Source of the DNA: Melioribacter roseus
GTDB taxonomy: Bacteria; Bacteroidota; Ignavibacteria; Ignavibacteriales; Melioribacteraceae
NCBI GenBank assembly: GCA_020724265.1
Contig: DYHH01000002.1
Span: 139,026 to 203,025 of the forward strand
DNA length: 64,000 nt
Reading direction: 5' to 3'
The first letter of the stretch is position 1. The number at the start of each line of letters is the position of its first letter. Below are positions 15,834 to 50,972 of this stretch, piece after piece. Below the pieces are notes generated by a model. That model was given only the letters and a program-made list of their open reading frames with translations. It ran no database searches and had not been told where the DNA came from. A program made the translations under genes and the position numbers.

Positions 15834-15841
15834 ATTCAGAT

Positions 15842-26671: not shown

Positions 26672-26690
26672 AAATAATAGAGAATTCGAA

Positions 26691-27836
26691 ATGAGAACTA
26701 TTTCTGTTTATTATCCTAAAAAATTTGTCTTTGGAAATGGATGCAGTGAGGAATTTGTACATGACTTCATTGGCTTTGGTTACAATAAATTATTATTGGT
26801 TACTGCTGTACCACTTCTCAAATTAATTGAACCGATTGCAAGTGAAATTAATAAAGCCGGGAAAGAAGTATTTATTTACGATAGCGTTAATGCGGAACCA
26901 ACCATTGAAGACTTAGACAAAGCATTGGAATTTGCAAGAAGTAAAAATATAAATAGTGTGGTAGGTATCGGAGGAGGGAGCGTATTAGATTTAGCTAAAT
27001 TAATTGCGGCAATGCTTCACAATAGTCAAACTATTCATGAAGTATTCGGTATCGGTAATTTGCGGAAAAGAGAAATCTATTTAGCTTGTCTGCCAACAAC
27101 TTCGGGAACCGGCAGCGAGGTATCACCAAATGCTATCCTACTTGATAAAAGTGATAACCTTAAAAAAGGTGTAGTGAGTCAATATCTTGTACCCGATGGA
27201 GCATATGTTAACCCTTTATTAACAAAATCTGTCCCTCCTCCCATTACCGCTGCTACCGGAATTGATGCCCTTATTCATTGTATTGAAGAATACACTAACA
27301 AATTTGCACATCCCGTAATTGATGTATATGCTCTTGAAGGGATTAGACTGATTTCAAGTTATTTGAAACGAGCTTATGATAATGGTGATGACGAGGAAGC
27401 CCGCGAAAAAGTAGCACTTGGAAGTTTATACGGTGGACTCGGTTTAGGTCCGGTTAATACTGCTGCGGTTCATGCACTTTCATATCCGCTTGGTGGTGAA
27501 TTTCATATACCGCATGGTCTATCAAATGCAGTACTGCTTCCTTATGTAATGAAATTTAATATGGGGGCGTCAGTAGACCGCTATGCAGGTGTTGCGTTAG
27601 CTCTTAGTGCAGCTGAGGGTAAAGATAATTTTCATACGGCACAAAATGGTGTTGATAAAATTTTCGAACTGTGTGAGCAGCTTAATATTGAAGTTAAACT
27701 CTCGGCTTTGAACATTCCAAAAGATGCAATAAGTAGAATGGCAGAAGGAGCAATGAAAGTTGAAAGATTGCTGAAAAACAATCCGCGTACATTAACATTT
27801 GATGACGCAGTACAAATTTATAATGATGCTTACTGA
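26691..27836 (+). CDS. Iron-containing alcohol dehydrogenase
   Basis: A 381-residue group III (Fe-ADH) enzyme. It shows the NAD-binding GGGSVLDLAKLIA, the TTSGTGSEVSPNA signature and the metal-ligand region HALSYPLGGEFHIPHG with conserved His residues. Such enzymes interconvert small aldehydes and alcohols, for example lactaldehyde/propanediol or succinic semialdehyde. In this operon it could reduce an aldehyde released by the aldolase-family enzymes (27852 or 47077). The ATG at 26691 gives a normal N-terminus; an in-frame start further upstream overlaps the sulfatase gene and is unlikely. There is a 19-bp gap to the sulfatase. Confidence 0.93.
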   Translation: MRTISVYYPKKFVFGNGCSEEFVHDFIGFGYNKLLLVTAVPLLKLIEPIASEINKAGKEVFIYDSVNAEPTIEDLDKALEFARSKNINSVVGIGGGSVLDLAKLIAAMLHNSQTIHEVFGIGNLRKREIYLACLPTTSGTGSEVSPNAILLDKSDNLKKGVVSQYLVPDGAYVNPLLTKSVPPPITAATGIDALIHCIEEYTNKFAHPVIDVYALEGIRLISSYLKRAYDNGDDEEAREKVALGSLYGGLGLGPVNTAAVHALSYPLGGEFHIPHGLSNAVLLPYVMKFNMGASVDRYAGVALALSAAEGKDNFHTAQNGVDKIFELCEQLNIEVKLSALNIPKDAISRMAEGAMKVERLLKNNPRTLTFDDAVQIYNDAY

Positions 27837-27851
27837 AAAAAGAGAGAAATA

Positions 27852-28778
27852 ATGCAGAAAAAAAAGAAAAAATATTCGGGAATTATTGTACCGATGATTA
27901 CTCCATTTAAAGATGATGGGAAAATCGATGAAAGAGCGGTCGAAAATTTATTAAACTATTTTATTAACCACAAAAGCGACGTATTGATATTTGGCACAAC
28001 AGGTGAAACAGCATCAATACAACAAAATCAAAAAACCAAATCATTTGAAAATATTGTCAAAAAATATGAAGGTAAACTTAAAATATATGCAGGCGTTTCA
28101 GACAATTCATTTGAAGATGCAGTCTCAGCTGCTAACACATATCTCGATTTAGGAGCTGAAGCTGTTGTTGTCTTACTCCCTGGTTATTATCCCATTACTT
28201 CGGATCAAATGCTAAACTACTACGAAAAATTTGCTGATCAAATAAAAGGGAAGATGTTTATATATAATATTCCAGCAACAACTCACTTATCAATTCCAAT
28301 AGAAGTAATTGAAAAACTTAGTCATCATGAAAATATTATCGGAGTGAAAGATTCCGAAAGAGATTTAGAGCGAATGAAAAAATCAATTGAGTTATGGAAA
28401 GAAAGAGAAGACTTCTCTCATTTTGTTGGTTGGGGTGCTCAATGTTTTAATTCATTAATGCATGGTTCTGACGGCATTGTACCGAGTACCGGCAATTTTG
28501 ATCTCTCGTTTTATAATAAATTACTTATTGCTGTTGATGAATCGAATTCTAAAGACGGTGAAAATTTTCAAGATATAACTATGGAGATTTCTGCTGTTTA
28601 TCAAAAAGATAAAATTCTTAGTCAATCCTTACCTGCATTAAAAGTAATGATGAATGAAGCCGGTTTGTGCGGTACAAATGTTTTGCTGCCTTTTACTCAA
28701 CTACCGAAGAATGAAGAAAAACAAATCAGAGTGCAGACCAGAGAATTAATTGATAAATATAATCTAACCTGGAATTAA
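27852..28778 (+). CDS. DapA/NanA-family aldolase (dihydrodipicolinate synthase family)
   Basis: A 308-residue class I lyase with complete active-site landmarks: GTTGE with Thr49-Thr50, YNIP with Tyr138 and GVKDSE with the Schiff-base Lys166. The family makes or cleaves bonds next to pyruvate (dihydrodipicolinate, N-acetylneuraminate, 2-keto-3-deoxy sugar acids, and others). The neighbours, an Fe-ADH, a PdxA-like dehydrogenase and a DUF1537 kinase, argue for a catabolic role on a sugar acid and not lysine synthesis. An N-terminal run of lysines precedes the barrel. A second, altered copy lies at 48976. Confidence 0.92.
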   Translation: MQKKKKKYSGIIVPMITPFKDDGKIDERAVENLLNYFINHKSDVLIFGTTGETASIQQNQKTKSFENIVKKYEGKLKIYAGVSDNSFEDAVSAANTYLDLGAEAVVVLLPGYYPITSDQMLNYYEKFADQIKGKMFIYNIPATTHLSIPIEVIEKLSHHENIIGVKDSERDLERMKKSIELWKEREDFSHFVGWGAQCFNSLMHGSDGIVPSTGNFDLSFYNKLLIAVDESNSKDGENFQDITMEISAVYQKDKILSQSLPALKVMMNEAGLCGTNVLLPFTQLPKNEEKQIRVQTRELIDKYNLTWN

Positions 28779-28792
28779 GGAGTCTCAGCCGA

Positions 28793-29836
28793 ATGAAGAA
28801 TAATAAACCTATAATCGGTATAACAATGGGAGACCCTTCAAGTATCGGTCCTGAAATTACCGTCAAAACGTTAAATCATAAAAAAGTTCATGAGATTTGT
28901 TGCCCGGTTATTGTGGGTGATGCAAAAGTTATTGAGAAAGCAGTTTCTGATCTTAAACTAAATAAGAAAGTAAAAAGAATTAAAGATATAAATGAAGCCG
29001 ATTATTTTTTTGATACATTAAATGTATTCGATTTGGATCTGGTTGATGTTGCTAAATTAAAAATTGGTCAAGTCTCCAAAGAATCAGGCGAAGCAGCTTT
29101 CCAATCAGTTAAAAAAGTAATAGAACTTGCATTGAATAAAAATGTTGATGCAACAGTTACCGGTCCGCTTCATAAAGAATCAATTAATCTTGCCGGGCAT
29201 AAATTCTCCGGGCATACCGAAATTTATGCACATTATACCAACACAAAAAAATATGCAATGTTGTTAGTTGAAGAAGACTTGCGTGTAATTCATGTTTCTA
29301 CTCATGTATCTCTTCGCAAGGCATGTGATTCAGTAAAGAAAGACAGAATTATTGAAGTAACCGAATTGATAAATGATGCGTGTAAACAGTTTGGTATTAA
29401 AAGTCCGCGGATAGCTGTTGCCGCATTAAATCCTCATGCTGGAGACGGAGGATTGTTCGGTGATGAAGAAATTAAAGAAATAATTCCTGCCATTAAAGAA
29501 CTACAGAAAAAAGGAATAAATGCAGAAGGACCTTATCCGGCTGATACTTTATTTGCTATTGCAAAAGGAGGAACATTTGACGGATGCGTGGCTATGTATC
29601 ATGATCAAGGACATATTCCTTTTAAGCTGGTTGGCTTTAATTGGGATAAAGAAACAAACAAAATGAAAAGTGTGAGAGGAGTTAATATCACATTAGGTTT
29701 ACCGATAATAAGAACTTCGGTTGATCACGGAACGGCTTTTGAAATTGCCGGTAAAGGAATTGCAAGCGAAGATGCGATGATGCTTGCAATTGAATATGCT
29801 GTGCAAATGGTTAATTACAAATATTCTAATAAATAA
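28793..29836 (+). CDS. PdxA-family dehydrogenase, probably four-carbon acid sugar phosphate dehydrogenase (PdxA2-like)
   Basis: A 347-residue NAD-dependent, metal-using oxidative decarboxylase. Typical strings are GITMGDPSSIGPEI, VTGPLHKESI, GHTEIYAHYT and MYHDQGHIPFKL, with the metal-binding histidines kept. PdxA itself acts in pyridoxal phosphate synthesis, but the gene 12 bp downstream encodes a DUF1537 kinase. That pair is established for catabolism of threonate and erythronate: the kinase phosphorylates the four-carbon acid at C4, and PdxA2 oxidises and decarboxylates it to dihydroxyacetone phosphate. That role is preferred here. The choice between threonate and erythronate isomers is open. 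Confidence 0.9.
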   Translation: MKNNKPIIGITMGDPSSIGPEITVKTLNHKKVHEICCPVIVGDAKVIEKAVSDLKLNKKVKRIKDINEADYFFDTLNVFDLDLVDVAKLKIGQVSKESGEAAFQSVKKVIELALNKNVDATVTGPLHKESINLAGHKFSGHTEIYAHYTNTKKYAMLLVEEDLRVIHVSTHVSLRKACDSVKKDRIIEVTELINDACKQFGIKSPRIAVAALNPHAGDGGLFGDEEIKEIIPAIKELQKKGINAEGPYPADTLFAIAKGGTFDGCVAMYHDQGHIPFKLVGFNWDKETNKMKSVRGVNITLGLPIIRTSVDHGTAFEIAGKGIASEDAMMLAIEYAVQMVNYKYSNK

Positions 29837-29848
29837 CGGAAAACTAAA

Positions 29849-31021
29849 ATGATTGCAGTTATTGCAGATGATTTTACCGGAGCAGCCGAAATTGCAGGCT
29901 TGGGTTTACGTTATGGACTTAAAGTTGAAATTGAATCTCATCTTTTTACCGAATCAAATGCTGATTTATTAATTATTGCAACAGATACAAGATCTAAAGA
30001 AGAAAGTGAAGCTTATGAAGAAGTTTTTATAATTACACAGAAGTTAAAGAACATTGGCTGTGATTGGGTTTATAAAAAAACCGATTCTGTTTTCAGGGGA
30101 CATATTTATAATGAACTGAAGGCAATGCTTGATGCTAATGGTGTTAAAAAAGCATTGCTTGTTCCGGCTAACCCCGAAATCGGGAGAAAGATTAAAAACG
30201 GAATTTATTTTGTTGATAATAAATTTATTCACGAAACTAATTTTGCCGAAGATCCCGAATATCCTGTAACAACATCCGACGTTAAAACCTTAATGCGGAC
30301 TAATGATCGAGACAATATCAAATTATTAAATGCTAAAAGTGAAATATATGAATGGGGAATATCAATCGGTGAAGCTGTTTCAGAAGAAGACTTAAATGAT
30401 TGGGCAACAAAAATTGATAATACAATTATTCCAGCCGGCGGAGCAGGTTTCTTTAAAGCCTTACTTGAAGTAAAAGGATACAAAAGAAAAATCTTAGTTA
30501 ATGGTGAAAATAATAGTTTCGGAGAGAAATTTTTATTCGTTTGCGGGAGTGCTTTCTCTAAAGGTAAAGCTGCATTTACCAATCTGCAGAATTGTAAAAG
30601 AAAAACTTTTCCAATGCCCGATGCAGTTTTTAATAATACATCACAATCAAAAGATTTTTTTAAGACTTGGGAAAAAAATGTTATCAGTGCATTTGACGAT
30701 AACAATTTTGTTATTCTGGAAATCGATCAACCAGTTGTAAGAGATAAAAAATTTGCAAAAAGATTGCGCGAAGATATGGCAAGGTTAGTCGAGCATGTAC
30801 TTAATAAAGTAGAAGTAAATGAATTATTAATTGACGGAGGAGCAACTGTTTATTCTATTGCCGAAAGGGTAGGATTAAACAAGTTTTTTCCCGTTCAAGA
30901 GATAGCACCGGGCGTAATTAGAATGAAAGTTCAGAGTAGAAATGATTTCCATATAACAATCAAACCCGGCAGTTATCCGTGGCCGGAATCTTTACTCGAT
31001 ATACCTTGTGAAGAAAAGTAA
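29849..31021 (+). CDS. Four-carbon acid sugar kinase (DUF1537 family)
   Basis: A 390-residue ATP-dependent kinase. The N-terminal domain opens with the family signature IAVIADDFTGAAEIAG and contains DTRSKEESEAY and YKKTDSVFRG. The C-terminal nucleotide-binding domain shows LLIDGGATVYSIAERVG and a Gly-rich RMKVQSRNDFHITIKPGSYP end. The family phosphorylates threonate, erythronate or related 3-oxo acids and works with PdxA2-type dehydrogenases, which is exactly the upstream neighbour. It probably supplies dihydroxyacetone phosphate to central metabolism from an acid fragment of the glycan. Confidence 0.92.
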   Translation: MIAVIADDFTGAAEIAGLGLRYGLKVEIESHLFTESNADLLIIATDTRSKEESEAYEEVFIITQKLKNIGCDWVYKKTDSVFRGHIYNELKAMLDANGVKKALLVPANPEIGRKIKNGIYFVDNKFIHETNFAEDPEYPVTTSDVKTLMRTNDRDNIKLLNAKSEIYEWGISIGEAVSEEDLNDWATKIDNTIIPAGGAGFFKALLEVKGYKRKILVNGENNSFGEKFLFVCGSAFSKGKAAFTNLQNCKRKTFPMPDAVFNNTSQSKDFFKTWEKNVISAFDDNNFVILEIDQPVVRDKKFAKRLREDMARLVEHVLNKVEVNELLIDGGATVYSIAERVGLNKFFPVQEIAPGVIRMKVQSRNDFHITIKPGSYPWPESLLDIPCEEK

Positions 31022-33526: not shown

Positions 33527-35956
33527 ATGATTTTTGAAAAGAAAATTTATAATGCAGTACTACTATTGTCATTATTAATGCTATCGAGGTTTTCATTTGC
33601 ACAAGAAGTAATTGCATTTTGGCCTTTCGATGAACAGCAAGGCGTTTATCCGAGCTCGGCTCTAACAGATTTTTCCGATAATGATTATCCTTTGGTAATC
33701 GGACCGGGAGGTAAAATCGTAGAAGGTAAGTTCGGTAATGCTCTCTATCCGGCACAGCAAGTAAAATTTGATTTTGTTGAGATTGAAGACGAAGTAAAAT
33801 TTGGTTTAACACCGGTTCCTATTCCCGAAGGGAGAATTGTTGAACCAATGAACTGGTTTAATGCTAACTTTTGTGCATTAATGACTAGCGGTGAAAATCA
33901 TTTAAGAAAACAAGTAGGTTTTCCTCAAGTTACTAAAACAAAATTGAATTTGGGAAATTTCGATTGGACGATTGAACTATGGTTCTATCCGACAGAAATT
34001 GCAAATTCTAAAGGTACGTTATTTGAAATCGGAAGCGGTCCACGAGGTGAAAATAAGATTTATACTGCTCTTAAATTAAACGAAGATTTGAAGAACTTTG
34101 CATTTTATAATCAACCCGGAGAAGTTGATGTAAAAATCTTAACCAAACTTACACTAAATGAATGGCATCATTTAGTTTTCCAATACGATGCTTCCAAAAA
34201 ACAAATCACTCACTTTGTAAACGGAGCACTGAAATCAACTTTGGAGAATGTTGATATTCAAGCATTGCCTTTTGGGGATGAAGATTATATGAGTATCGGA
34301 AGAAACGGTTTATGGGATGAACCTCTTCAAGGAAAGATTGATGAGCTTAGATTTATTGATGGAATAATATATAAAAACAATTTCACTCCTCCCGGTAGTT
34401 ATTCGTATGTCAATGATAGAGCAAGAAATAAAGATTTAATTAAAGGACCGGAATTACTTTTCGATAAAAAGCAGTCAATCCCAATTAATTTAGGAAATCG
34501 TAAACACTTGTTTATTGATGATGCATTACTTCAAGAAAAAGGAAATACAAAGTTTGTTGTAAATCCTCCTTCAATGGATGAAATTGTTTTAACGAATATT
34601 GAAGGAGCTTTTAGAAAACATTTAAGTGTTGTTGAAGACGATGAAGGTAAAATTAGAATTTATACAACAGTTGACGATGATTATTTAGCGGTATGGATTT
34701 CAGACGACGGAATAAACTTTACAGCTCCGGATCTTCCCAACGGGAAATATAAAAGTCATACAAATATAGTTCTTCACGCAAACGTTGGGATGGGAATTGT
34801 TTTTTTTGATCCGAATGCTCCTAAAGAAGAACGATGGAAATATATAAGTGATTATCACAGAAGAGCAGTTTCACTTTTTTATTCCGAAGACGGTTTAGAA
34901 TTTGAGCGGTATAAACAGCCGGTACTTCCTTTCCGTTCTGGCTCTCAGGCAAATATTTTTTATGATGATCAGAAACAAGTTTATACGGCATTTCACCGTT
35001 CCGATTTCGGAAGAACAAAGACTAATGATACTCAGCGCGATTTTGTAATGACTGAAACAAAAGATTTACTTCAGCCTTGGCCTTTCGAACCGATTACTAC
35101 CGAAGAAACTAAAAGAAGAGCGGAGGGGAAAAGAGTTGCAGATTTAATTCCTTGGTATCTTGATAATGGTCCGTTAACTCCGGGTGGATTTGCTATGGAG
35201 TATCCTTGGATTTTTTCTCCTTTAGATTCACTTGATCCGAGAGAGACGGATATTTATGTGCCCAAAGCAATTAAATATCCTTGGGCACCGGATACATACG
35301 TTGCATTCCCTGTTATGTATTTTCATTACGAAGATTCTGTTCCGGATGAAAGAATGATTCTTTATTCTCCGGAAAGAAAATTAGGTTCCGGTCCGCTTGA
35401 AACACAATTCTCTTCAAGCCGCAACGGTGTTGATTGGATTCGATATCCGAGACCTGCTTATGTTGGAATAGGTGAGCATAAAGGTATTGATTTTAAAACG
35501 GCTTACATCGCTTACGGAATGGTAAAGAAAGGTAATCAAATTTGGCAGTATACATTTAATGAACCGCATTATCATTCACCGTGGATTAAGTACGACGACA
35601 AAAGATCAGTAATAAAATTAATTCAACGGTTGGATGGATTTGTATCAATCGACTCTCCGTATGAAAAGGAAACGACAGTTGTTACAAAACCTTTGGTCTT
35701 TGAGGGAAATAAACTTGTACTTAATATCGATACCGATGCAACCGGTTATGCGCAAGTCGGTTTAATTGACGAAAACGGTAAACCGATTAAAGGTTTCTCT
35801 GTAGATGAATGTATTTATATAAATGGAGATTTTATTGAAAAAGAAGTCGAGTGGATGGAAAAAGGAACAGATGTTTCGGAATTAGCCGGTAAAATAGTTC
35901 AAGTAGTTTTGAGAATGAGGGGTTCTAAGCTATACGCGATGCAATTTGTGGAATGA
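33527..35956 (+). CDS. Secreted LamG domain plus beta-propeller (GH32/GH43-like fold) protein
   Basis: An 809-residue exported protein. After the signal peptide (SFAQ) an N-terminal concanavalin-like LamG domain spans about residues 20-290 (FDWTIELWFYPTE, then NEWHHLVFQYDASKKQITHFVNG). The rest, from NRKHLFIDDALLQ near residue 324, looks like a five-bladed propeller of the type seen in GH32/GH43-clan proteins of Planctomycetes and FCB bacteria. Its DDxxL strand lies where those enzymes keep the nucleophile. A small C-terminal beta-domain follows (NIDTDATGYAQVGLIDENG). No confirmed CAZy family or reaction. It is a close paralogue of the next gene. Confidence 0.75.
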   Translation: MIFEKKIYNAVLLLSLLMLSRFSFAQEVIAFWPFDEQQGVYPSSALTDFSDNDYPLVIGPGGKIVEGKFGNALYPAQQVKFDFVEIEDEVKFGLTPVPIPEGRIVEPMNWFNANFCALMTSGENHLRKQVGFPQVTKTKLNLGNFDWTIELWFYPTEIANSKGTLFEIGSGPRGENKIYTALKLNEDLKNFAFYNQPGEVDVKILTKLTLNEWHHLVFQYDASKKQITHFVNGALKSTLENVDIQALPFGDEDYMSIGRNGLWDEPLQGKIDELRFIDGIIYKNNFTPPGSYSYVNDRARNKDLIKGPELLFDKKQSIPINLGNRKHLFIDDALLQEKGNTKFVVNPPSMDEIVLTNIEGAFRKHLSVVEDDEGKIRIYTTVDDDYLAVWISDDGINFTAPDLPNGKYKSHTNIVLHANVGMGIVFFDPNAPKEERWKYISDYHRRAVSLFYSEDGLEFERYKQPVLPFRSGSQANIFYDDQKQVYTAFHRSDFGRTKTNDTQRDFVMTETKDLLQPWPFEPITTEETKRRAEGKRVADLIPWYLDNGPLTPGGFAMEYPWIFSPLDSLDPRETDIYVPKAIKYPWAPDTYVAFPVMYFHYEDSVPDERMILYSPERKLGSGPLETQFSSSRNGVDWIRYPRPAYVGIGEHKGIDFKTAYIAYGMVKKGNQIWQYTFNEPHYHSPWIKYDDKRSVIKLIQRLDGFVSIDSPYEKETTVVTKPLVFEGNKLVLNIDTDATGYAQVGLIDENGKPIKGFSVDECIYINGDFIEKEVEWMEKGTDVSELAGKIVQVVLRMRGSKLYAMQFVE

Positions 35957-35985
35957 TTAATATAAAATAAATCTATGGTGCAAAT

Positions 35986-38493
35986 ATGAAGAGAACAGCT
36001 TTTTTTTTATTCATCGGTAGTATTATATTTTTAAGTTTATCATGCAGCCCACCAAAAAGTGATAATAACACAATCTCTTTGTGGTTATTTGATGAACAAA
36101 TTGATTTTTATCCAAGCCATGTATTAGAAAACTCATCAGAAAATAATATACCTCTTGTTTTAGGATTAGGCGGACAAATTGTTGAAGGTAAATTCGGCAA
36201 TGCGCTTGAACCTATTGCACAACCTGAAATTGAATTACCTCACGGTGAACTTAAGTTTGGACTTGAAAAACTTGAACCAGCTAACGGAAGAACCGTAGAA
36301 CCATTGACATGGTACAACGCAAATTTTGCAGCGCTAATGACAAGCGGCGAAAAACATCTTCGCAAAGAAGTTGGATTTGAACAAGTTACGAAGACCAAAC
36401 TAAATCTCGGTGATTTCGATTGGACAATCGAATTTTGGTTTTACCCGAATAAGAAAACAGGAAACGAGGGAGTAGTTTTTGAAATCGGTACTGGACCGAG
36501 AGGCGAAAATGATAAAGTAACTCGTTTAAGTCTTTCATCCGGGCAAAATGAGTTTTTATTTGTTAATCAACCTTCCAATACACATGCAAGTATTTTAACT
36601 GATCTTCAGTTTGAAGAATGGAATCATTTGGCATTTGTTTACTCTGCTTCAAAGAAACAGCTCAACCACTTTGTTAACGGAATATTTTCAAGCTCCAGGA
36701 ATAATCTTAATATAAAAGCTTTAGAAGTTGGGAAAGAAGATTATATGTCAATTGCCAGAAATGGTATGTGGCAGAATCCTCTTCAAGGTAAGATTGATGA
36801 GTTGAGATTTTCGGAGGGTTTGATTTACACGTCCGATTTTGAAGTTCCTTCTAGCTTTTCAAAAATTTATCAAACTGATTATACACCGGATGAACTTATT
36901 GTTGGACCGCCATTAATCTTTGATGATAACTCTAAAGATAAGTTCCCTATTTTATTGGGAGATAGAAAGCATTTATTTATCGATGATGCATTTCTTCAAG
37001 AGATTGATGATGATGCGAAGTTCACAGTTAATCCCCCTCGTAAAGCTGAATTAGTAATTGGTAATCTTGATGGACCTTTCAGGAAACATTTAACAGCTGT
37101 TGAAGACGAAGAAGGTATTATAAGAATTTACAATTCAGCTGAAGATGATTATTTAATTGTTCATACATCAAAAGACGGAATTAATTTTGAAGCCCCGAAT
37201 ACAGGCATTAGTCATAGAGGAAAAAATAATATTGTAATTCCCGAACCGGTTGGAGGTAAAGGTCATCCTTTCATCGATCCGAATGGTAAAGGAGATCAAA
37301 AATGGAAGTACATATCAAGTTATCATAACAGGGGTGTTTATTTATACACATCACCGGACGGTTACTCATGGACACGTCAAAAATCTGCATTAATTCCTTT
37401 TAGAAGTGGTACACAGTCATGTACTTTTTATGATGACCAAAGACAAATTTATGTATCCACACATAGAACTGGAATTTTTAATACACCGGGCGGTGCAACT
37501 CAAAGAAGCACAGTTGTAACTCAAACAGATAATCTGTATAAACCAATAATTTACGAACCTCTTTTACAAGAAGATTATTCTAAACTGAATGAAAAATATC
37601 GAATTAGACAACCGCAGCCTTGGTGGCTGGATAACGGTCCGTTAACTCCGGGTGACTTTGGATTGGAATTTCCACATACTTTTGATCCCGAAGAAGCAGA
37701 CCCGGTAGGTACTGATATTTATATTACAAAAGCTCACAAGTACGAACATGCACCTGATACATATCTCGCATTTCCAATTGTCTATTTTCATTATGAAATG
37801 GACGGCCCGCTAACACGACAAATTTTAATTGATTCTGCACGTGGCAGAGGCTCCGGTCCTATCGAAACACAAATTGCAGTTAGCCGCGACGGCTTAAACT
37901 GGAAAAGATATTATCAACCTGCTTATGTCGGAACCGGATTACATGAAGGCATTGATATAAAAACGGCATATATATCGCATGGCTTAATTAGAAGAGGTGA
38001 TGAAATTTGGCAGTATTATTTTGGCGAACCGCATTATCATTCCGCATGGCAGAAGTTTGATGATAAAAGAGCTGTGTTCAGATTAGTTCAAAGATTAGAC
38101 GGCTTTATTTCGATAGACAGTCCATATGAAAAAGAAGTTACTATCAAAACAAAACCATTTGTCTTCAGTGGGAATAGGTTAGTGTTGAACATTGATACGG
38201 ATGCCGTTGGCTATACACAAGTAGGATTTTTGGACGAAAATGGCAAACCCATAAAAGGTTATTCGCTTGACGAATGTATTTACATTAACGGTGATTACAT
38301 TGCTGAAGAAGTTGAATGGATTAAGAACATGGATCAGTTTGAAGACATTGGAATTGGTGAAGGTGAATCACCCGAAATTTTAAAAGAGGTTAAAACTACA
38401 AAAGATGTTTCATCATTGGAAGGAAAAGTTGTGCAATTAGTTTTCAAAATGAGAAGTACAAAACTTTATTCAATGCAGTTTTTGAACAAATAG
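35986..38493 (+). CDS. Lipoprotein LamG plus beta-propeller protein, paralogue of preceding gene
   Basis: An 835-residue protein with the same architecture as the gene 29 bp upstream: LamG domain (FDWTIEFWFYPNK near residue 140), a DRKHLFIDDAFLQ start of the propeller, FRSGTQSCTFYDDQRQIY, the GPLTPGDFGLEFP loop, and the C-terminal NIDTDAVGYTQVG module. It differs in having a lipobox (LSLSC, Cys20) instead of a plain signal peptide, and an insert of about 20 acidic residues in the C-terminal module. One copy is therefore membrane-anchored and the other soluble, suggesting division of labour after duplication. Function is not known. Confidence 0.75.
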   Translation: MKRTAFFLFIGSIIFLSLSCSPPKSDNNTISLWLFDEQIDFYPSHVLENSSENNIPLVLGLGGQIVEGKFGNALEPIAQPEIELPHGELKFGLEKLEPANGRTVEPLTWYNANFAALMTSGEKHLRKEVGFEQVTKTKLNLGDFDWTIEFWFYPNKKTGNEGVVFEIGTGPRGENDKVTRLSLSSGQNEFLFVNQPSNTHASILTDLQFEEWNHLAFVYSASKKQLNHFVNGIFSSSRNNLNIKALEVGKEDYMSIARNGMWQNPLQGKIDELRFSEGLIYTSDFEVPSSFSKIYQTDYTPDELIVGPPLIFDDNSKDKFPILLGDRKHLFIDDAFLQEIDDDAKFTVNPPRKAELVIGNLDGPFRKHLTAVEDEEGIIRIYNSAEDDYLIVHTSKDGINFEAPNTGISHRGKNNIVIPEPVGGKGHPFIDPNGKGDQKWKYISSYHNRGVYLYTSPDGYSWTRQKSALIPFRSGTQSCTFYDDQRQIYVSTHRTGIFNTPGGATQRSTVVTQTDNLYKPIIYEPLLQEDYSKLNEKYRIRQPQPWWLDNGPLTPGDFGLEFPHTFDPEEADPVGTDIYITKAHKYEHAPDTYLAFPIVYFHYEMDGPLTRQILIDSARGRGSGPIETQIAVSRDGLNWKRYYQPAYVGTGLHEGIDIKTAYISHGLIRRGDEIWQYYFGEPHYHSAWQKFDDKRAVFRLVQRLDGFISIDSPYEKEVTIKTKPFVFSGNRLVLNIDTDAVGYTQVGFLDENGKPIKGYSLDECIYINGDYIAEEVEWIKNMDQFEDIGIGEGESPEILKEVKTTKDVSSLEGKVVQLVFKMRSTKLYSMQFLNK

Positions 38494-39701: not shown

Positions 39702-41669
39702 ATGAAAACGAAAATTACATTAATTCTTTTTATAGCTTTTGTAATTGTGGAAAACTTAATAGCTCAGCAAATAATGCCTCCACCGTACGAAGAATGCTTA
39801 ACAGAAAATATAAAGTATGTCGGTGAGATAACAACAAATAAATATTTCTATGATGGGAAGTTACCGCACGCAGTTGGTTCTCATCACTTTCAAGTGTTTA
39901 GAGCTAACAGAGCACATCCAAGTGAAGCTGGTGTTGTTGGCTGGACATACAATCATCAACCTTATCTTGCTTACTGGAATGATAAATTTTATTTGCAATT
40001 TTTATCAGGTTTAATTGCCGAGCATACACCACCGACAAGAATATCTATTACAACTTCACATGACGGAATGCAATGGAGTGATCCTGTTGTTGTATTTCCC
40101 GAATATTTACTTCCTGAAATTAATGATGACGGTGAAATAATTCCTGAAGGAAGCTATGCAGTTTATCATCAAAGAATGGGTTGGTATGTTGCACCAAACG
40201 GGAAATTATTTACTCTTGGGTTTGTCGGTTACTGTGCTACACCACGTCGTTCTCCAAATGCGGGTAACGGTCTTGGCAGAGTTGTACGCGAAGTTAAAGC
40301 TGATGGTTCATTCGGTGAAATATATTTTATTCGGTATAACAGACATGCCGGTTGGAACGAATCAAATACAAACTATCCTTTCTACAAAGAAAGTAATGAT
40401 AAAGAATTTATTGATGCTTGTGAAAGCTTATTATCAGATAAATTAGTAACTCTGCAATGGTGGGAAGAAGACCGTGGAAAAGACGGCTTCTTTATTATGG
40501 ATCCTTCTCAAGTTCCTGATGGAGATACATTCTCAAAGAAAATTACTACTGCTGCCGGTGCAGGTAAAGCATTTAATTTTTACAGAAGACCGGATAATGT
40601 AATAGTCGGTTTATGGAAAAATCAATACTCATCATTAAGTCCCGATAACGGAGAAACTTGGTCCCCTATTGTAAAGAATACATCATTGCTTACAACAGGA
40701 GCAAAAACATGGGGACAAAAAACCGAGGATGGAAGGTATGTAATTGTTCATAACCACTCAGCAACAAAACGAAACCGCTTTCCTATGACTGCATTAGTTG
40801 GTGAGGACGGTTATAAATATGATAGAATATTTGCACTAAGAGGAGAAGTTCCAACTCGTCGTTATCAAGGTCTTCATAAAAATCCGGGCGAACAATATTT
40901 TAGAGGAATTATTGAAGGTAACGGTAATCCTCCCGGTGATGAGTTATGGATGACTTACAGTGTTAATAAAGAAGATATTTGGGTAACGAAAACACATGTA
41001 CCAATTATCGGAAGTGTAACTGAAGAAGTAAACGAAAATTTTGAAAACATAAATTCACTTAGCGATTTGAAGCTATGGAATATTTATGTTCCTGCGTGGG
41101 CGCCGATTTCTATTAAGTATGATAAAGAAAGAAAAAGTAAATACTTGGAATTAAGAGACGAAGAACCTTACGATTATTCATTTGTTGAAAGAATTTTCCC
41201 GGCTTCTTCAAAGAAAAATATTGAATTCAAATTTCAAGGAGAAAAATTACCTCAAGGTCACGCCCCCGAAATTGAAGTACAAGATCAAAAAGGAAATAGA
41301 GTATTAAAACTAAGAATAGATACCGACTGGCTCTCGTTCGATATTGAGAAAGTGCATACCGATCCGGTAAAAATTGATCCTAAACAATGGAATCATGTTA
41401 AACTCGAAATAGATTGTGAAAAGAGCTCTTATACGGTAAAAATAAATGGAAAGCAATACCCGAAAGAAATCTCCTTTTCTGATAAAGCCGAAGTCGTTGA
41501 AAGAATAGTTTTTAGAACCGGTCCATATAGAAATTTTGTGCCGGCTCAAGTTGCCGAGACAGGAATAGGAAGACAACCCGGTTTTGATCTCGATGATCAA
41601 CCTGGTGCTGATTATAAATCACCTTTAATAATTCTTAACATTGATGATGTTATTACAAGCGGAGAATGA
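39702..41669 (+). CDS. Large secreted propeller-type protein with C-terminal concanavalin-like domain
   Basis: A 655-residue exported protein (signal peptide ends LIAQ). Residues about 25-440 look like a propeller related to exo-sialidase/PL24-GH145-type folds. Landmarks are GWTYNHQPYLAYWNDKFYLQ, an Asp-box SHDGMQWSD, HQRMGWYVAPNGK with a His, and SPDNGETWSP. Residues about 450-640 form a jelly-roll (LamG-like) domain. The specific family was not recognised with confidence; such proteins recur in polysaccharide loci and could be lyases or glycosidases. The stop codon lies 1 bp before the cupin start, so the two are coupled. Confidence 0.7.
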   Translation: MKTKITLILFIAFVIVENLIAQQIMPPPYEECLTENIKYVGEITTNKYFYDGKLPHAVGSHHFQVFRANRAHPSEAGVVGWTYNHQPYLAYWNDKFYLQFLSGLIAEHTPPTRISITTSHDGMQWSDPVVVFPEYLLPEINDDGEIIPEGSYAVYHQRMGWYVAPNGKLFTLGFVGYCATPRRSPNAGNGLGRVVREVKADGSFGEIYFIRYNRHAGWNESNTNYPFYKESNDKEFIDACESLLSDKLVTLQWWEEDRGKDGFFIMDPSQVPDGDTFSKKITTAAGAGKAFNFYRRPDNVIVGLWKNQYSSLSPDNGETWSPIVKNTSLLTTGAKTWGQKTEDGRYVIVHNHSATKRNRFPMTALVGEDGYKYDRIFALRGEVPTRRYQGLHKNPGEQYFRGIIEGNGNPPGDELWMTYSVNKEDIWVTKTHVPIIGSVTEEVNENFENINSLSDLKLWNIYVPAWAPISIKYDKERKSKYLELRDEEPYDYSFVERIFPASSKKNIEFKFQGEKLPQGHAPEIEVQDQKGNRVLKLRIDTDWLSFDIEKVHTDPVKIDPKQWNHVKLEIDCEKSSYTVKINGKQYPKEISFSDKAEVVERIVFRTGPYRNFVPAQVAETGIGRQPGFDLDDQPGADYKSPLIILNIDDVITSGE

Positions 41670-45489: not shown

Positions 45490-47058
45490 ATGAAAGCAAA
45501 AATTGTAGTTTTATTCTTATTAACAGTTGTTTGTTTCTATGCTAAAGTGAAAGGACCAACAACCATTCAAGTTGACCTTGGTTTATATTCACAAATATTA
45601 TTTGTTTCTGATAATGGTTCTGATGAAAAGAATAGCGGAACTAAAGATAATCCATTTAAAACGATTCAATATGCGGTCTCGAAAACAAATAATTTAACTG
45701 AATCTACTAAAACAGCTATAATAGTTGCCGAAGGTATTTACGAAGGAGAAACAATTCACTTAAAACAGTTTATTGATCTTTATGGCGGCTTCAACAAAGA
45801 TAATTGGGAAAGAGATCTTGAGTTATACAATTCTGAAATAAATATTAAAAACGAACAACGAGCAATAATTACTTCTGATAATAATATTATTGATGGATTT
45901 ACAATCAGTAACGCAGTGTTCAGGGGTAAAGGTGCTGCAATATTTTGTGACGGTACTTCACCTATAATTTCAAATAACATATTCATTAATAACAAAACAT
46001 TAAAACCACTTGATTGGAATCCGAAATACTGGCATGATACAGCTAATGACGGTGGTGCAATTTACGGTAAAGACGGAGCATCTCCTTTAATCAATAATAA
46101 TTTATTCGTAAGCAACAAAACCGAAAACGGAAGAGGTGCTGCTGTTGCGTTTGATAATAAATGTGATCCGAAGATTATTGACAATGTTTTCTTTAAAAAT
46201 GAAACCGGCTTAGACGATCCGATGCGAAGCAGTGATGGCGGAGCTGTTTCAATTTTCAGATGGTGTAAGGGTTTAATAGAAGGAAATATTTTTCTTAGCA
46301 ATTATGCCGGTGCAAAGAATGATGCCGGAGGTGTTTTTATTGCTCTATGGAGCTCAACTATAGTAAAAGATAATATATTTGTCGATAACGAATGTACTGA
46401 CGATGCCGGAGCTTTGTTTGTCGGGGGACAAGAACATCGCTATGATGCACCGCTCGATCCATTCCCTTCAAAAGAAGATTTTTATGTTACAATAGATAAC
46501 AACTATTTCGTGGGCAACCGTAATCCATCAATGAATTCCGGTGCAATGCGGTTTACCATGGAAAGTAGGGGAGAATTTACAAATAACGTGGTTGCCCATA
46601 ATAATGGCGTCTATTTTCAACGAAGTGAAACTAAAATAACAGATAATATTATTCTCGATAATATGCTTGTCATAGAAACCAAAGAATATCTTGATAAGAC
46701 TATTATAAAAGACAATTTCATTTGGGCAAATTTTACAGTGTACGAAACAGAGGCATTAGTTGAAAATAACTATATGCTCAATGCTGATAAGTTTCCCGGG
46801 AATATAAATAAACCACTTGATTTGAATAATGACGGAATCAAACTAAGAGTTTTATCTGCATACTATCTCAAAGATAAAATCCATACAGAATTAATTGCTG
46901 CTTTTAATGTTAATGATGATCTAACGAATAGAATTATAAAATCTGGTGATAGATGGAGTGTTATTAAGTCACACAAAAATGGTGTAATTCAACTATGGGG
47001 AAACTTTTCGGCAATTACTTCTTTGCAAGTTTTACCGACATATACTTTGAAAAAATAA
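45490..47058 (+). CDS. Secreted right-handed parallel beta-helix protein (DUF1565-like start)
   Basis: A 522-residue exported protein. The signal sequence (about 1-20) is followed by SDNGSDEKNSGTKDNPFKTIQYAVSK, the usual entry of DUF1565/beta-helix proteins, then many coils with Asn-rich turns (SNNIFINN, INNNLFVSNK, VKDNIFVDN). Such folds are common to polysaccharide lyases of families such as PL6 and to GH28/GH110-like enzymes, but no catalytic signature could be fixed. An interrupted set of GGAIYG, GGAVSIF and GGVFIAL loops may line the groove. Upstream SD ggag is present. Role: probable glycan binding or cleavage. Confidence 0.78.
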   Translation: MKAKIVVLFLLTVVCFYAKVKGPTTIQVDLGLYSQILFVSDNGSDEKNSGTKDNPFKTIQYAVSKTNNLTESTKTAIIVAEGIYEGETIHLKQFIDLYGGFNKDNWERDLELYNSEINIKNEQRAIITSDNNIIDGFTISNAVFRGKGAAIFCDGTSPIISNNIFINNKTLKPLDWNPKYWHDTANDGGAIYGKDGASPLINNNLFVSNKTENGRGAAVAFDNKCDPKIIDNVFFKNETGLDDPMRSSDGGAVSIFRWCKGLIEGNIFLSNYAGAKNDAGGVFIALWSSTIVKDNIFVDNECTDDAGALFVGGQEHRYDAPLDPFPSKEDFYVTIDNNYFVGNRNPSMNSGAMRFTMESRGEFTNNVVAHNNGVYFQRSETKITDNIILDNMLVIETKEYLDKTIIKDNFIWANFTVYETEALVENNYMLNADKFPGNINKPLDLNNDGIKLRVLSAYYLKDKIHTELIAAFNVNDDLTNRIIKSGDRWSVIKSHKNGVIQLWGNFSAITSLQVLPTYTLKK

Positions 47059-47076: not shown

Positions 47077-48054
47077 ATGCGAATGATTAAACTAAGACAA
47101 CTACTTGTCATTATTATAATTACTTTTCTGACCAATTCATTAATTGCTCAAGAAGATTATGTTGATAAGAACTATCAACCCAAAAGAATAAATAAAAGTA
47201 TCGAACTATTCGAAGCCGGACAACAAGTTTACTATCGATATACAAATGCTGCGGAAGGTTATAAAGAAGGTTTGGAAATGGCTCAAACCTGGGCTGATTA
47301 TATAGTTTATGATATGGAACACCGCCCGCTTGATTTCAGCAGATTGAGAGATTTTATGAAAGGTTTGGTTGATGGTGGCCCTACTCCAAGCGGACATAGA
47401 ACTCCTGCAGTAATTGTAGTACTTCCCGTATTAGGTTTAGATGAAAATTCATTTATGGGTGGCTCATGGATGGTTCAACAGGCTTTATTACAAGGCGTTC
47501 ATGGAGTTCATCTTCCGAGAGCTCGAGATCCTCAAGCAGTAATTAGATATGTGCAAGCTGCTCGTTATCCTATTCACAAACAAAAAATCGATGAAATTGG
47601 TGAAGGAGTTCGCGGATGGGGAAGTCACAAATTTGCAGCCTGGGTTTGGGGAGTTTCCGAAGAAGAATATTTGACAAAAGCAGATGTTTGGCCTCTAAAT
47701 CCTGAAGGTGAACTTATGCTCGGTGTTAAAATTGAAGATCCGCAAGCGCTTGAAAATGCTGAAGTAACACTAAAAACTCCCGGGCTTGCGTTCGCAGAAC
47801 ATGGACCAAGAGATTTTGGATTTTCACTCGGTTACCTTGAAGGAAGAGCTGACCCGCCTGTTCCCGAAGGTGTTTCTGCAGCAGGGGATAGTGTTCTTGC
47901 TCTTTGTAAAAAATATGGACTTTACTTCTTAGATAATGTACTTCCGGATAATGTAAAAGATAGAGTAGATAAGGGTGTAATGATTGGTGCAGGCAGCAAT
48001 AAAGAAGCTGCAGAAGTTGGAAGAAGATACACTAAAAGAAAAATGCCATGGTAA
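47077..48054 (+). CDS. HpcH/HpaI-family aldolase carrying a signal peptide
   Basis: A 325-residue class II pyruvate aldolase relative. Family marks are YIVYDMEHRPLDF (base region), QALLQGVHGVHLPRARDP and MLGVKIEDPQALENAE with the Glu/Asp metal ligands expected there. Known members cleave 4-hydroxy-2-oxo acids to pyruvate and an aldehyde, in the cytoplasm. Here residues 1-25 form a clear signal peptide (LLVIIIITFLTNSLIAQ, Q-rule site), and the start is fixed by an SD (ggagag). That makes it a probable periplasmic protein, which is unusual. It is followed by an FAH-family gene that also has a signal peptide. Confidence 0.85.
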   Translation: MRMIKLRQLLVIIIITFLTNSLIAQEDYVDKNYQPKRINKSIELFEAGQQVYYRYTNAAEGYKEGLEMAQTWADYIVYDMEHRPLDFSRLRDFMKGLVDGGPTPSGHRTPAVIVVLPVLGLDENSFMGGSWMVQQALLQGVHGVHLPRARDPQAVIRYVQAARYPIHKQKIDEIGEGVRGWGSHKFAAWVWGVSEEEYLTKADVWPLNPEGELMLGVKIEDPQALENAEVTLKTPGLAFAEHGPRDFGFSLGYLEGRADPPVPEGVSAAGDSVLALCKKYGLYFLDNVLPDNVKDRVDKGVMIGAGSNKEAAEVGRRYTKRKMPW

Positions 48055-48084
48055 TTTTATTACAATTCTTATTTGATAATTGTT

Positions 48085-48969
48085 TTGAAGAAATCATTAA
48101 ATAATACTTACTCTTTAATTTTTTTAATAATAGTGATTACTGCAATGGATATTACGGCACAAAGTGAAAAATTCTGCAGATTTGAAAAAGATGGCAGTTC
48201 ATATTACGGTAAATATGAAGAAAATATTATTCATCAACTTGAAAGAGAACCTTGGTTTGGAATTGAACATACCGGGATCACTTATGAATTATCAGAAGTA
48301 AAATTGTTATATCCAAGTGAACCGAAAAAAATTATCGGTTTGGTTAAAGCTTACAAACAAGCTTGGGAAAATAAAAATCCGCCTAGTTTTGTTAGATGGT
48401 TTTTAAAACCCGCATCTTCCGCAGCTTCTGATTATGATAGTGTTTTTCTTCCTTCTGCTTTTGATCAAATAAAAGTCGAGTGTGAACTTACAATTATTAT
48501 AGGCAAGGAAATTAAAGATGCAGATCAAGAAGAAGCTGAAGCAGCAATATTCGGTTACACTGTTGGCAATGATATTATGGGTTATGATGAATCGTTTGTA
48601 AAATATACCGGAGATACTCTTGAGTATAAGGATCCGTCGCTTGCAGCAGCATTGAAAATCAGCGATCGGTTTGCTCCTTACGGGCCGCTGATTTATACAA
48701 ATTATAATTGGCAAGACCGTAATTTTTCACTAAGTATTCGTAACTCGGATAGCAACAAAGAAGTAATTTATAATGACAACACAAATAACCTTCTTTACAC
48801 GCCGGCTAAAATTGTTTCGAATCTTTCCAAAATTTTAACTCTTTACCCCGGAGACGTAATTATGACCGGTACTTCAAAATCTTTTGTTGCAGGTAGTGGT
48901 GATATAGTAACCGTTGAAATTGAAGGTCTCGGTAAACTAACAAATTACATTTCTGTTAAAAGAAATTAG
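48085..48969 (+). CDS. Fumarylacetoacetate-hydrolase-family protein carrying a signal peptide
   Basis: About 294 residues. From residue 28 it is a standard FAH-family protein: the short N-terminal domain CRFEKDGSSYYGKYEE, then VECELTIIIGKE (metal-binding Glu), GYTVGNDIMGYDE, and the end TLYPGDVIMTGTSKSF with GDIVTVEIEGLGKL. The family hydrolyses or decarboxylates beta-diketo or 2-oxo acids. The first residues KKSLNNTYSLIFLIIVITA then MDITAQ form a signal peptide. No ATG is available before Met24 of that leader; TTG codons at 48085 or 48073 are the possible starts, and no SD is visible, so the start is uncertain. It is paired with the exported aldolase 30 bp upstream. Confidence 0.8.
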   Translation: MKKSLNNTYSLIFLIIVITAMDITAQSEKFCRFEKDGSSYYGKYEENIIHQLEREPWFGIEHTGITYELSEVKLLYPSEPKKIIGLVKAYKQAWENKNPPSFVRWFLKPASSAASDYDSVFLPSAFDQIKVECELTIIIGKEIKDADQEEAEAAIFGYTVGNDIMGYDESFVKYTGDTLEYKDPSLAAALKISDRFAPYGPLIYTNYNWQDRNFSLSIRNSDSNKEVIYNDNTNNLLYTPAKIVSNLSKILTLYPGDVIMTGTSKSFVAGSGDIVTVEIEGLGKLTNYISVKRN

Positions 48970-48975
48970 AAAATA

Positions 48976-49902
48976 ATGAATAGCAGCGTTGAAAATATCC
49001 AAGGAATTATAGGAGTTATAAATACACCCTTTACTGAAGATAATAAAATTGATGTCGAATCACTTAATAGATATGTCGAAAATTCTATAACTAAAAAGGT
49101 AGTAGGATTCCTTGTTTTAGGATTAGCAGCAGAGGTAAATAAACTTTCAGTTGATGAAAAAATATTAATTGTAAATACTGTTATCAAGAAAGTAAATAAA
49201 AGAGTACCTGTAATATGCGGTACAACTGCATCATCACAAAAAAAAAGAATCGACTTAGTTAAAGAATTCTCCGATTTGGGCTGCGATGGAATACTTGTTA
49301 ACATCCCATATGAAAATGAAGATTCTTACATGTCGGATGTGAGAGAATTATCTAAGAACATTACCGGATTTATGATGCTGCAAGATTGGGATTTTCATGG
49401 TTACGGAATTCCGATAAATGTTATTACAAGACTTTTTAATGAATTAGAAAATTTCAAATGCCTCAAAATTGAAGTAGTACCCGCCGGAGTTAAATATTCA
49501 CAAGTTAGGAATGCAACAAACGGAAGAATTCATCTTTCCGGCGGATGGGCTGGAACACAGATGATTGAAGCACTTGATAGAAATGTTGACGCTTTTATGC
49601 CTACAATCTTACATGATGTGTACGGAATGATTTATCGCTTACACAGAAATGGTAAAAGAGAAGAAGCAAAGTTTATATTTAACAAACTACTGCCTATTAT
49701 TTCTTTCTCGCATCAGCATTTAGATATATCAATTCATTTTAATAAAAGACTGTTGTTCAAACAAAAAATTTTTTCTACTGCTAAAGTTCGGCAACCTATT
49801 ATATCATTTGATCAACACCATGAAAAAATTGCAGACGAACTGATTAAGTATGCAATTAAACTAAGTGAAAACATTGTAGAGAGTAGCAAATGGAAAAATT
49901 AA
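48976..49902 (+). CDS. DapA-family protein with altered active site
   Basis: A 308-residue relative of dihydrodipicolinate synthase/N-acetylneuraminate lyase. The Schiff-base lysine is kept (Lys164 in LKIEVVPAG), but the usual GTTGE is GLAAEV, and the YNxP segment that carries the catalytic Tyr is replaced by LQDWDFHGYG. The proton-relay Thr and Tyr are therefore missing at their normal places. It may catalyse a different pyruvate-independent aldol or dehydration reaction, or be specialised for a bulky acid. It lacks a signal peptide. It starts 6 bp after the FAH gene and overlaps the next one by 13 bp. Confidence 0.85.
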   Translation: MNSSVENIQGIIGVINTPFTEDNKIDVESLNRYVENSITKKVVGFLVLGLAAEVNKLSVDEKILIVNTVIKKVNKRVPVICGTTASSQKKRIDLVKEFSDLGCDGILVNIPYENEDSYMSDVRELSKNITGFMMLQDWDFHGYGIPINVITRLFNELENFKCLKIEVVPAGVKYSQVRNATNGRIHLSGGWAGTQMIEALDRNVDAFMPTILHDVYGMIYRLHRNGKREEAKFIFNKLLPIISFSHQHLDISIHFNKRLLFKQKIFSTAKVRQPIISFDQHHEKIADELIKYAIKLSENIVESSKWKN

Positions 49903-50972
49903 AATATTATATCGCTTTAGGAGCTCCTCCTATTCGAACTCCGGCAACAGGCGATGAACCATTCATGCGCCCCGAAGTCGGATTTAATCCCTCTTGGTTT
50001 TATAAGTTTTGTGAAATTGACTTTTCTGAAAAATGGCATACAGATGTTGAGTATAGATTGAAATGTCATGAAATAATGAGAGCCGAAATAAAGAAAAGAT
50101 TTCCCGGATACAATATTGGCGGTGTCTTGAATGATGAACCGTATGATCTGTTAACCGGTGTTTACGGTATCGGAATTATGGATTCGATTTTCGGAAGACC
50201 TTTACAGTATTATAATGATAAATGGCCTGCCCCAATAGGTGCTCATTTAAGCGATGAAGAAATTTTATCACTCCAAGCTCCTGATCTTTCAAACAACAGA
50301 TTTTTGATGAACATAATGGAACAGATTGATGAAATTTATAAATATACCGGAAGCGCACGTGGATTCTTAAACTGGCAAGGGAATCTGAACTCTGCATTCC
50401 GATTTAGAGGCGAAGCGATATTTATTGATTTGATGGAGGAGAATGAAATTATTGATAGGTTATTAACAATTATATCGGATACTTATTTGGAGGGAGTAAA
50501 AAGAATTTATGCAAAGCAGAAAGAATATAACATTGATTATGATTTTTCTACAATTGCTAATTGTACTGTTAACATGGTTGGTCCGGATATATATGGCTCC
50601 CGGCTACTGAAGTATGATCAAAAAATTGCAAATGAATTTCCAATAATCGGTGTACATAATTGTGCATGGACGGTAACACCCTATCTTGATTTATATTCTC
50701 AAATTCCGAATGTGGCATATATTGATATGGGTATTGATTCCGACTTAAAAAAAGCGCGTGAAATTTTTCCTGATGCAAGAAGAAATTGTCTTTATAAATC
50801 AATTGATCTAAAAGATAAATCCAACGAAGAAATTAGAAATGATTTTGTTTTTATTGCAGAGAATCTTGCACCATGCGATGTAGGTATGCCGGATATTGAA
50901 GATGATGTCCCCGATGAAAAAATAAAATTCGCAATTGATCTATGTAAAGAATTATCTGATAAATATTCTTGA
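49890..50972 (+). CDS. URO-D-superfamily methyltransferase-like protein (second copy)
   Basis: A 360-residue divergent member of the URO-D superfamily. The zinc-ligand pattern of corrinoid methyltransferases can be followed: His256 and Cys258 in HNCAWT, and Cys329 in APCDVGMPDIEDD. The N-terminal part (PEVGFNPSWFYKFCEIDFSEKW) is typical of a family often annotated as methyltransferase/URO-D in glycan and methylamine loci. No corrinoid protein is encoded next to it. It could feed the carrier at 15192. It overlaps the DapA-like gene, so both probably act in one pathway. True HemE function is unlikely. Confidence 0.78.
   Translation: MEKLKYYIALGAPPIRTPATGDEPFMRPEVGFNPSWFYKFCEIDFSEKWHTDVEYRLKCHEIMRAEIKKRFPGYNIGGVLNDEPYDLLTGVYGIGIMDSIFGRPLQYYNDKWPAPIGAHLSDEEILSLQAPDLSNNRFLMNIMEQIDEIYKYTGSARGFLNWQGNLNSAFRFRGEAIFIDLMEENEIIDRLLTIISDTYLEGVKRIYAKQKEYNIDYDFSTIANCTVNMVGPDIYGSRLLKYDQKIANEFPIIGVHNCAWTVTPYLDLYSQIPNVAYIDMGIDSDLKKAREIFPDARRNCLYKSIDLKDKSNEEIRNDFVFIAENLAPCDVGMPDIEDDVPDEKIKFAIDLCKELSDKYS

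Follow-up and report, generated by a model that had tools for sequence, protein, structure and literature searches.

Two adjacent genes of Melioribacter roseus appear to encode exported variants of two known superfamilies, the HpcH/HpaI aldolases and the fumarylacetoacetate hydrolase (FAH)-type enzymes; such variants were rare in the groups of genomes sampled, and their reaction is putative. Both families are normally cytoplasmic. The genes lie on the same strand of a 64,000-nucleotide stretch of contig DYHH01000002.1 (hereafter the window), with an HpcH/HpaI-family open reading frame (ORF) at 47077-48054 followed by an FAH-family ORF at 48073-48969. Both ORFs were present as a first-pass annotation had given them, with leaders ending in NSLIA before QEDY and in MDITA before QSEK, respectively. 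Its observation that both proteins start with a leader was confirmed by our sequence comparisons, firmly for the aldolase and less firmly for the FAH protein. The two genes and their leaders are as follows.

47077..48054, + strand: HpcH/HpaI-fold protein with N-terminal leader (325 aa, ATG start)
47077..47148, + strand: aldolase leader, MRMIKLRQLL...NSLIA before QED; no alternative start ahead of the conserved domain
48073..48969, + strand: FAH-fold protein with N-terminal leader (298 aa, TTG start)
48073..48159, + strand: FAH leader ending ITA before QSEK; alternative ATG at 48145

The aldolase N-terminus reads MRMIKLRQLLVIIIITFLTNSLIA followed by QED, and the FAH N-terminus, when read from the TTG, is MIIVLKKSLNNTYSLIFLIIVITAMDITA followed by QSEK. 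In Pfam searches the aldolase ORF matched PF03328 (HpcH_HpaI) with 32.6 bits, above the cut-off of 25, and the FAH ORF matched PF01557 (FAA_hydrolase) with 130.4 bits (cut-off 23.9) as well as PF10370 (Rv2993c-like_N) with 42.2 bits (cut-off 21.3).

The aldolase carries a conserved leader

Judged by sequence, the aldolase leader is real and a predicted export signal. The traits of a Sec signal peptide, namely a basic start, a hydrophobic core and small residues before the cut, were recognized in a hydrophobicity scan and by eye. In-frame ATG codons occur at residues 1 and 3, and the next possible starts are only the TTG/ATG at residues 66/68, beyond the RINK motif. Since the stretch from the leader to the domain has no start codon, the start of the window aldolase is not mis-called, and the claim of the first-pass annotation for this protein stands. 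Some start codon just ahead of the domain was present in 7 of the 12 leader-bearing close aldolases, unlike in the window.

We counted leaders in 46 frames with a readable N-terminus, with four fragments set aside (L011, L065 (G793:C69), L047 and the second frame of L007). A leader was found in 17 of the 18 frames scoring at least 266 bits with family profile A3, which itself includes leader columns, versus a leader-like stretch in 1 of the 28 generic HpcH/HpaI frames (at most 89 bits with A3), at a hydrophobicity threshold of 2.0 that was chosen post hoc with the data already seen and that L005 (2.01) and L023 (2.06) barely exceed. The single generic case, L046, has a hydrophobic stretch that is reachable only from a GTG, and its plausible ATG comes after the stretch. 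Among the close aldolases with a readable N-terminus (window, L002-L006, L050-L055 and L007), 12 of 13 have the leader, as do all five outer relatives (L023, L024, L056, L057 and L064). The exception in both counts is L007, a leaderless Burkholderiales protein of 49% identity, which may be damaged or mis-assembled because its reading frame breaks near the end. In a phylogenetic tree, midpoint-rooted for drawing only and with L068 (a cut duplicate of L003) counted as unlabelled, 16 leader-bearing genes and the leaderless L007 formed one clade (support 95/82), with L023 just outside it, among the rest.

The FAH protein probably carries a leader as well

In the window, an FAH protein started at the ATG at 48145 (residue 25) would be leaderless, and the leader requires the TTG. 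Structural alignments of the predicted model place the beginning of the FAH fold at residue 31-32. Six of the eight members of the FAH clade have a leader, which is ATG-started in L002, L004, L015, L070 and L071; L003 and L050 are leaderless and start just ahead of the domain. The in-frame stretch upstream of the window ATG was the most hydrophobic of 39 comparable extensions; one other besides the window passed a value of 2.9, and among the AT-rich cases these two make up 2 of 9. We accepted the window leader because five relatives start with ATG and have a leader in this position, and we regard it as probable. The signal peptide that had been assigned to this protein is thus found in most of its clade, but the window copy needs a TTG with an ATG after the leader, and two members lack it altogether.

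Two further observations concern this gene family. In L003, where the FAH leader is missing, a serine-hydrolase (beta-lactamase-type) gene that looks broken by eye lies between the aldolase and FAH genes (8976-9711). In L092 (6886-8790, G183), a leader-bearing FAH domain and a long extra C-terminal part share a single 634-aa frame.

Both active sites depart from the canonical pattern

The active-site positions, all placed by alignment, are as follows.

47320..47322, + strand: His82, aligned with the catalytic His of HpaI-type aldolases
47419..47424, + strand: Val115-Leu116, position of the HpaI-type pyruvate-carboxylate Arg
47734..47736, + strand: Glu220, aligned with Glu153 of YfaU
47812..47814, + strand: Asp246, aligned with Asp179 of YfaU
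48478..48486, + strand: Glu136 and Glu138, FAH metal ligands
48571..48573, + strand: Asp167, third FAH metal ligand

For the aldolase, the mapping was made with sequence and profile alignments only; its AlphaFold model (from 6 sequences) reached a pLDDT of 37. We take the His82 position to be that of the catalytic His, and those of Glu220 and Asp246 to be the metal ligands, of HpaI/YfaU-type aldolases. All three residues were placed by alignment against 4mf4 and YfaU, and they were kept in 12 of 12 exported close aldolases. The Arg which presumably holds the pyruvate carboxylate in HpaI-type aldolases was replaced by V, S, I or N in the same 12 proteins and by T in L007. The position of the missing Arg corresponds to V115 in the alignments with 4mf4, L023 and L024 and to L116 in that with YfaU; none of the 12 has an Arg anywhere in 114-117. 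The loss does not follow from export, because all five outer leader-bearing relatives keep the Arg.

The window protein thus resembles the class II pyruvate aldolases of the HpcH/HpaI family (HpaI, YfaU/RhmA, DDG aldolase) in its PF03328 match and its aligned metal-center His, Glu and Asp, but differs from them by its leader, an inserted GGPTPSGHRTP, the missing carboxylate Arg, and scores far below the cut-offs of the HpaI/YfaU-type NCBIfam equivalogs (30.2 vs 368.8 for TIGR02311 and 19.3 vs 441 for PRK10128). GGPTPSGH and other long motifs were invariant among six aligned aldolases.

For the FAH protein, the best predicted model reached a pLDDT of 74.4 (the other four 61-46), and its residues 31-298 matched 4pfz in a fold search (Z 29.6, 2.4 A over 244 residues). 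Glu136, Glu138 and Asp167, an E-x-E plus Asp set that we take to be the FAH metal ligands, did not vary among the eight clade members. The His-x-x-Glu motif, presumably the His-Glu dyad in the lid of FAH hydrolases, was absent in the sequence alignment from all eight; the model is weakest (pLDDT <50) in and around residues 93-106 (the dyad loop) and 184-199 (an insertion), and so this absence is read from the sequences. Among five outer FAH sequences, the dyad was present in L072 and L073 and absent in L074, L075 and L078. The window clade shares fold, Rv2993c-like N-domain and E-E-D site with the FAH superfamily (HpcE/HpaG, Cg1458, FAHD1, diketo-deoxyrhamnonate hydrolase, 2-keto-3-deoxy-arabinonate dehydratase), and differs from it by a leader in 6 of 8 members, the missing HxxE in all eight, and an insertion between Asp167 and Lys195.

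The invariant metal ligands of both proteins, together with long motifs such as GGPTPSGH, suggest catalysis. Since neither L007 nor any of the 12 exported close members has the HpaI Arg, pyruvate-aldolase activity is not assured. The earlier description of the two proteins as full-length enzyme domains was right as to superfamily membership, but both are non-canonical, the aldolase without its HpaI Arg and the FAH protein without its dyad.

The two genes do not form an obligate pair

The FAH clade was present in 5 of the 12 exported-aldolase genomes (window, G070, G395, G396 and G777), in each of them as the next gene downstream of the aldolase (with a gap of 736 bp in G395), and no close FAH was found in the other seven. 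Members of the FAH clade also occurred without an adjoining aldolase in G395 (as a second copy, L015), G775 and G766. The association was weak in the 82-genome KSB1 group, where the FAH gene was found in 2 of 8 genomes with the aldolase versus 2 of 74 without it (p 0.046). An obligate aldolase-FAH pair was therefore rejected, since FAH accompanies a minority of the aldolases and also stands alone. The pair of leader-bearing genes that the first-pass annotation proposed to look for in other genomes does recur, but mostly the aldolase is without FAH, and the FAH protein is leaderless in two of the five genomes that have both genes.

In searches of four groups of genomes, relatives of the aldolase at 1e-20 were found in 2 of 395 genomes of the phylum of the window and in 2 of 337 genomes of the Opitutales phylum, one of which (G598) has only an outer relative. 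The aldolase was further found below 1e-140 in 8 of 82 KSB1-group genomes, plus a fragment in G793, and in 1 of 350 genomes of the Burkholderiales class, namely the search's own center genome. A scan of the whole contig collection, for close relatives only, yielded five loci (L003-L007). Exported HpcH/HpaI or FAH proteins were not found in the titles and abstract openings of the literature matches listed.

A beta-helix gene is the constant neighbor of the aldolase

The constant partner of the exported aldolase is a DUF1565-type gene, rather than the FAH gene. The neighbors concerned are as follows.

45490..47058, + strand: DUF1565 beta-helix protein with a hydrophobic N-terminus; upstream neighbor of the aldolase
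33527..38493, + strand: two LamG proteins (33527-35956 and 35986-38493); this family adjoins the DUF1565-type gene elsewhere
48976..49902, + strand: second DHDPS-family protein; after the FAH gene in the window, L003 and L079
49890..50972, + strand: 360-aa protein; after the DHDPS-family gene in the window, L003 and L079

A DUF1565-type beta-helix gene, assigned by Pfam for the window, L006 and L084 and via blastp clustering for the other loci, lies upstream of the aldolase on the same strand in all 12 leader-bearing close aldolase loci. The gap between the two genes is 8-364 bp in eleven loci; in the twelfth, L084, the DUF1565 gene ends at 6264 and the aldolase frame opens at 6325. The DUF1565 protein had no solved relative by sequence. 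Immediately before the DUF1565-type gene, 7 of the 12 loci have a LamG-family gene, and three more have one elsewhere in the stretch. For two of the five outer aldolases the adjoining gene was identified with Pfam, and both lie next to glycan genes (apiosidase-like by L024, BNR by L057). The proposed link of the leader-bearing proteins to glycan loci was supported.

Several other genes of the window deserve mention. The C-terminal ~500 residues of the two LamG proteins are without a Pfam family. The 360-aa protein at 49890-50972 had neither a Pfam match nor a solved relative by sequence, and looks URO-D-like by eye. A 409-aa protein (53910-55139) with a leader by eye and no Pfam match has a relative in L004 beside the aldolase-FAH pair. 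Finally, an NAGidase-like gene with a leader (1396-3216, Pfam) adjoins a gene that is similar by eye (18-1391) and begins at the window edge.

Candidate substrates and a candidate cytoplasmic pathway

Two further regions of the window bear on the possible substrate.

39702..41669, + strand: BT1020-like N-terminal propeller plus sialidase-like CBM; leader by eye
26598..31021, + strand: Fe-ADH, DHDPS-family aldolase, PdxA-family dehydrogenase and threonate-kinase-like gene; proposed cytoplasmic pathway

Residues 35-635 of the protein encoded at 39702-41669 align with residues 26-595 of 5mqr (E 1.8e-124), and the protein matched PF24067 with 324 bits. The aligned region is the N-terminal half of BT1020 (5mqr), which we take to be the GH143 Dha hydrolase of RG-II degradation. 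Through this match the window protein is a GH143 homolog with a putative role as Dha hydrolase; it resembles the BT1020-type RG-II degradation of Bacteroides in this half, but is without the second half of BT1020. Exported aldolase and FAH enzymes are not known from the RG-II degradation system.

PF24067 was found in 8 of the 12 exported-aldolase genomes, in seven of them on the same contig within 13 kb, and was not found in G070, G785, G787 and G795, of which G070 has the complete pair. In the KSB1 group, the BT1020-like gene occurred in 5 of 8 genomes with the aldolase versus 5 of 74 without it (Fisher p 4e-4), or 5 of 9 versus 5 of 73 when the fragment genome G793 was counted (p 9e-4), in both cases with genome kinship not controlled.

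Kdo aldolase activity is known (EC 4.1.2.23), and solved relatives of both folds include enzymes of 2-keto-3-deoxy sugar acids (YfaU; diketo-deoxyrhamnonate hydrolase and 2-keto-3-deoxy-arabinonate dehydratase). RG-II contains Dha and Kdo (PMC12282258), Dha and 5-O-methyl-Kdo occur in prasinophyte scales and in the Tetraselmis theca (PMC10762512), and Mesostigma scales contain Kdo, 5-O-methyl-Kdo and Dha (PMC1413533). We favor 3-deoxy-2-keto sugar acids as the substrate class. Dha as the sole substrate was weakened in that PF24067 was not found in four genomes and that the four pathway genes were seen in only 2 of the 12 loci. Inside the glycan locus, genes for a URO-D-type methyltransferase, a corrinoid protein and a homocysteine methyltransferase-like protein stand in a row at 14074-16723; as a speculation, this corrinoid methyl-transfer set could serve a methylated sugar acid.

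The four pathway families recur in L006, after the aldolase and with two other genes between, and were not seen in the other ten aldolase stretches, several of which are short. By this route, Dha (C7) might be cleaved into pyruvate and a C4 uronic acid, which would be reduced to a tetronate and then taken by kinase and dehydrogenase to dihydroxyacetone phosphate. The adjacent PdxA-family and kinase genes are reminiscent of the D-threonate/erythronate kinase-dehydrogenase pathway, whose enzymes we take to be OtnK/DtnK and PdxA2. They differ from it in that both fall below the threonate equivalog cut-offs (328.3 vs 583 for PdxA with the D-threonate model), and in the Fe-ADH and DHDPS-family aldolase alongside; PdxA passes the general vitamin B6 model TIGR00557 (360.6 vs 290.35).

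Discussion

The best explanation, which we hold tentatively, is that both proteins work outside the cytoplasm and act, with the help of a metal, on 3-deoxy-2-keto sugar acids. As their conserved leaders suggest, both would cross the inner membrane and act in the periplasm or at the cell surface, alongside the neighboring leader-bearing glycan-degrading enzymes. The HpcH/HpaI-fold protein would be a metal-dependent lyase/aldolase in which, going by the alignment, the metal is bound by Glu220 and Asp246, with His82 as the base. From the genomic context, its substrate may be a Dha- or Kdo-type 3-deoxy-2-keto sugar acid, either freed from or still terminal on an oligosaccharide produced by the beta-helix, LamG and BT1020-like proteins, and another mode of binding the keto-acid end would have to stand in for the lost Arg. 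Where present, the FAH-fold protein could carry out metal-enolate chemistry (dehydration, isomerization or decarboxylation) on the same type of compound; we do not propose hydrolysis, because its His-Glu dyad is gone. In the cytoplasm, the Fe-ADH, DHDPS-family aldolase, PdxA-like and threonate-kinase-like enzymes would then pass the products via a C4 sugar acid to glycolysis.

This explanation is weakened by the match of PdxA to the ordinary pdxA model and by the finding of the pathway genes in only one further locus. The cluster already has a cytoplasmic DHDPS-family aldolase for Dha cleavage, which leaves extracytoplasmic cleavage unexplained by the context, and BT1020-like genes also occur in five KSB1-group genomes without the aldolase. 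One possible reason for cleavage outside the cytoplasm would be that the residue still caps an oligosaccharide. The narrower claim, that outside the cytoplasm the exported Arg-less HpcH/HpaI-fold enzyme cleaves a C-C bond of Dha, Kdo or 5-O-methyl-Kdo, perhaps at such a cap and with an exported dyad-less FAH partner, is more doubtful. Periplasmic C-C bond chemistry on a keto-acid fragment, as the first reading had it, survives as our best guess, helped by the neighboring BT1020-like gene, but with the residues missing from both active sites canonical activities are not to be assumed.

Other explanations were weighed. The aldolase might act on unsaturated-uronate products (4-deoxy-5-keto uronate) of the DUF1565-type beta-helix protein as a polysaccharide lyase. 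4-deoxy-5-keto uronate when opened is a 2-keto-3-deoxy acid, many beta-helix proteins are lyases, and the DUF1565-type gene is more constant than the BT1020-like gene (12/12 loci vs 8/12 genomes); enolase-family and aldehyde dehydrogenase genes near L004 (Pfam) and L005 (blastp clusters) would suit uronate-type acids too. However, with no solved relative by sequence the lyase role is putative, and no unsaturated-uronyl hydrolase was named among the 25 Pfam-scanned window proteins, although one may have been missed because these are 25 of 46 ORFs of at least 150 aa. We consider this unlikely. A similarly small chance goes to the view that both proteins are exported yet are no longer such enzymes, and work in the glycan system as metal-containing proteins for binding, sensing or scaffolding: the lost HpaI Arg and FAH dyad would fit, but the invariance of His82, Glu220 and Asp246 (12/12), of the FAH E-E-D set (8/8) and of GGPTPSGH-type motifs suggests catalysis.

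The location of the proteins could also be read differently. That the aldolase alone is exported, with a cytoplasmic window FAH protein starting at ATG 48145, is improbable to the same degree; it draws on the need for a TTG, on the FAH proteins of G395 and G777 that begin just ahead of the domain, and on the one other of the 39 control extensions that is nearly as hydrophobic, and it is opposed by the five relatives with ATG-started leaders in the same place and by the top rank of the window stretch in that comparison. That both are ordinary cytoplasmic catabolic enzymes with mis-called starts is hardly credible: the usual location of the two families would speak for it, but the window aldolase has no start between leader and domain, and leaders recur in 17 of the 18 high-scoring frames.

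If these proposals hold, glycans would be broken down outside the cytoplasm by C-C bond cleavage as well as by hydrolysis, elimination and the removal of sulfate, and one could then test what becomes of the Dha and Kdo of RG-II or green-algal scales. Two large families of metabolic enzymes would then have been recruited for export with remodelled active sites.
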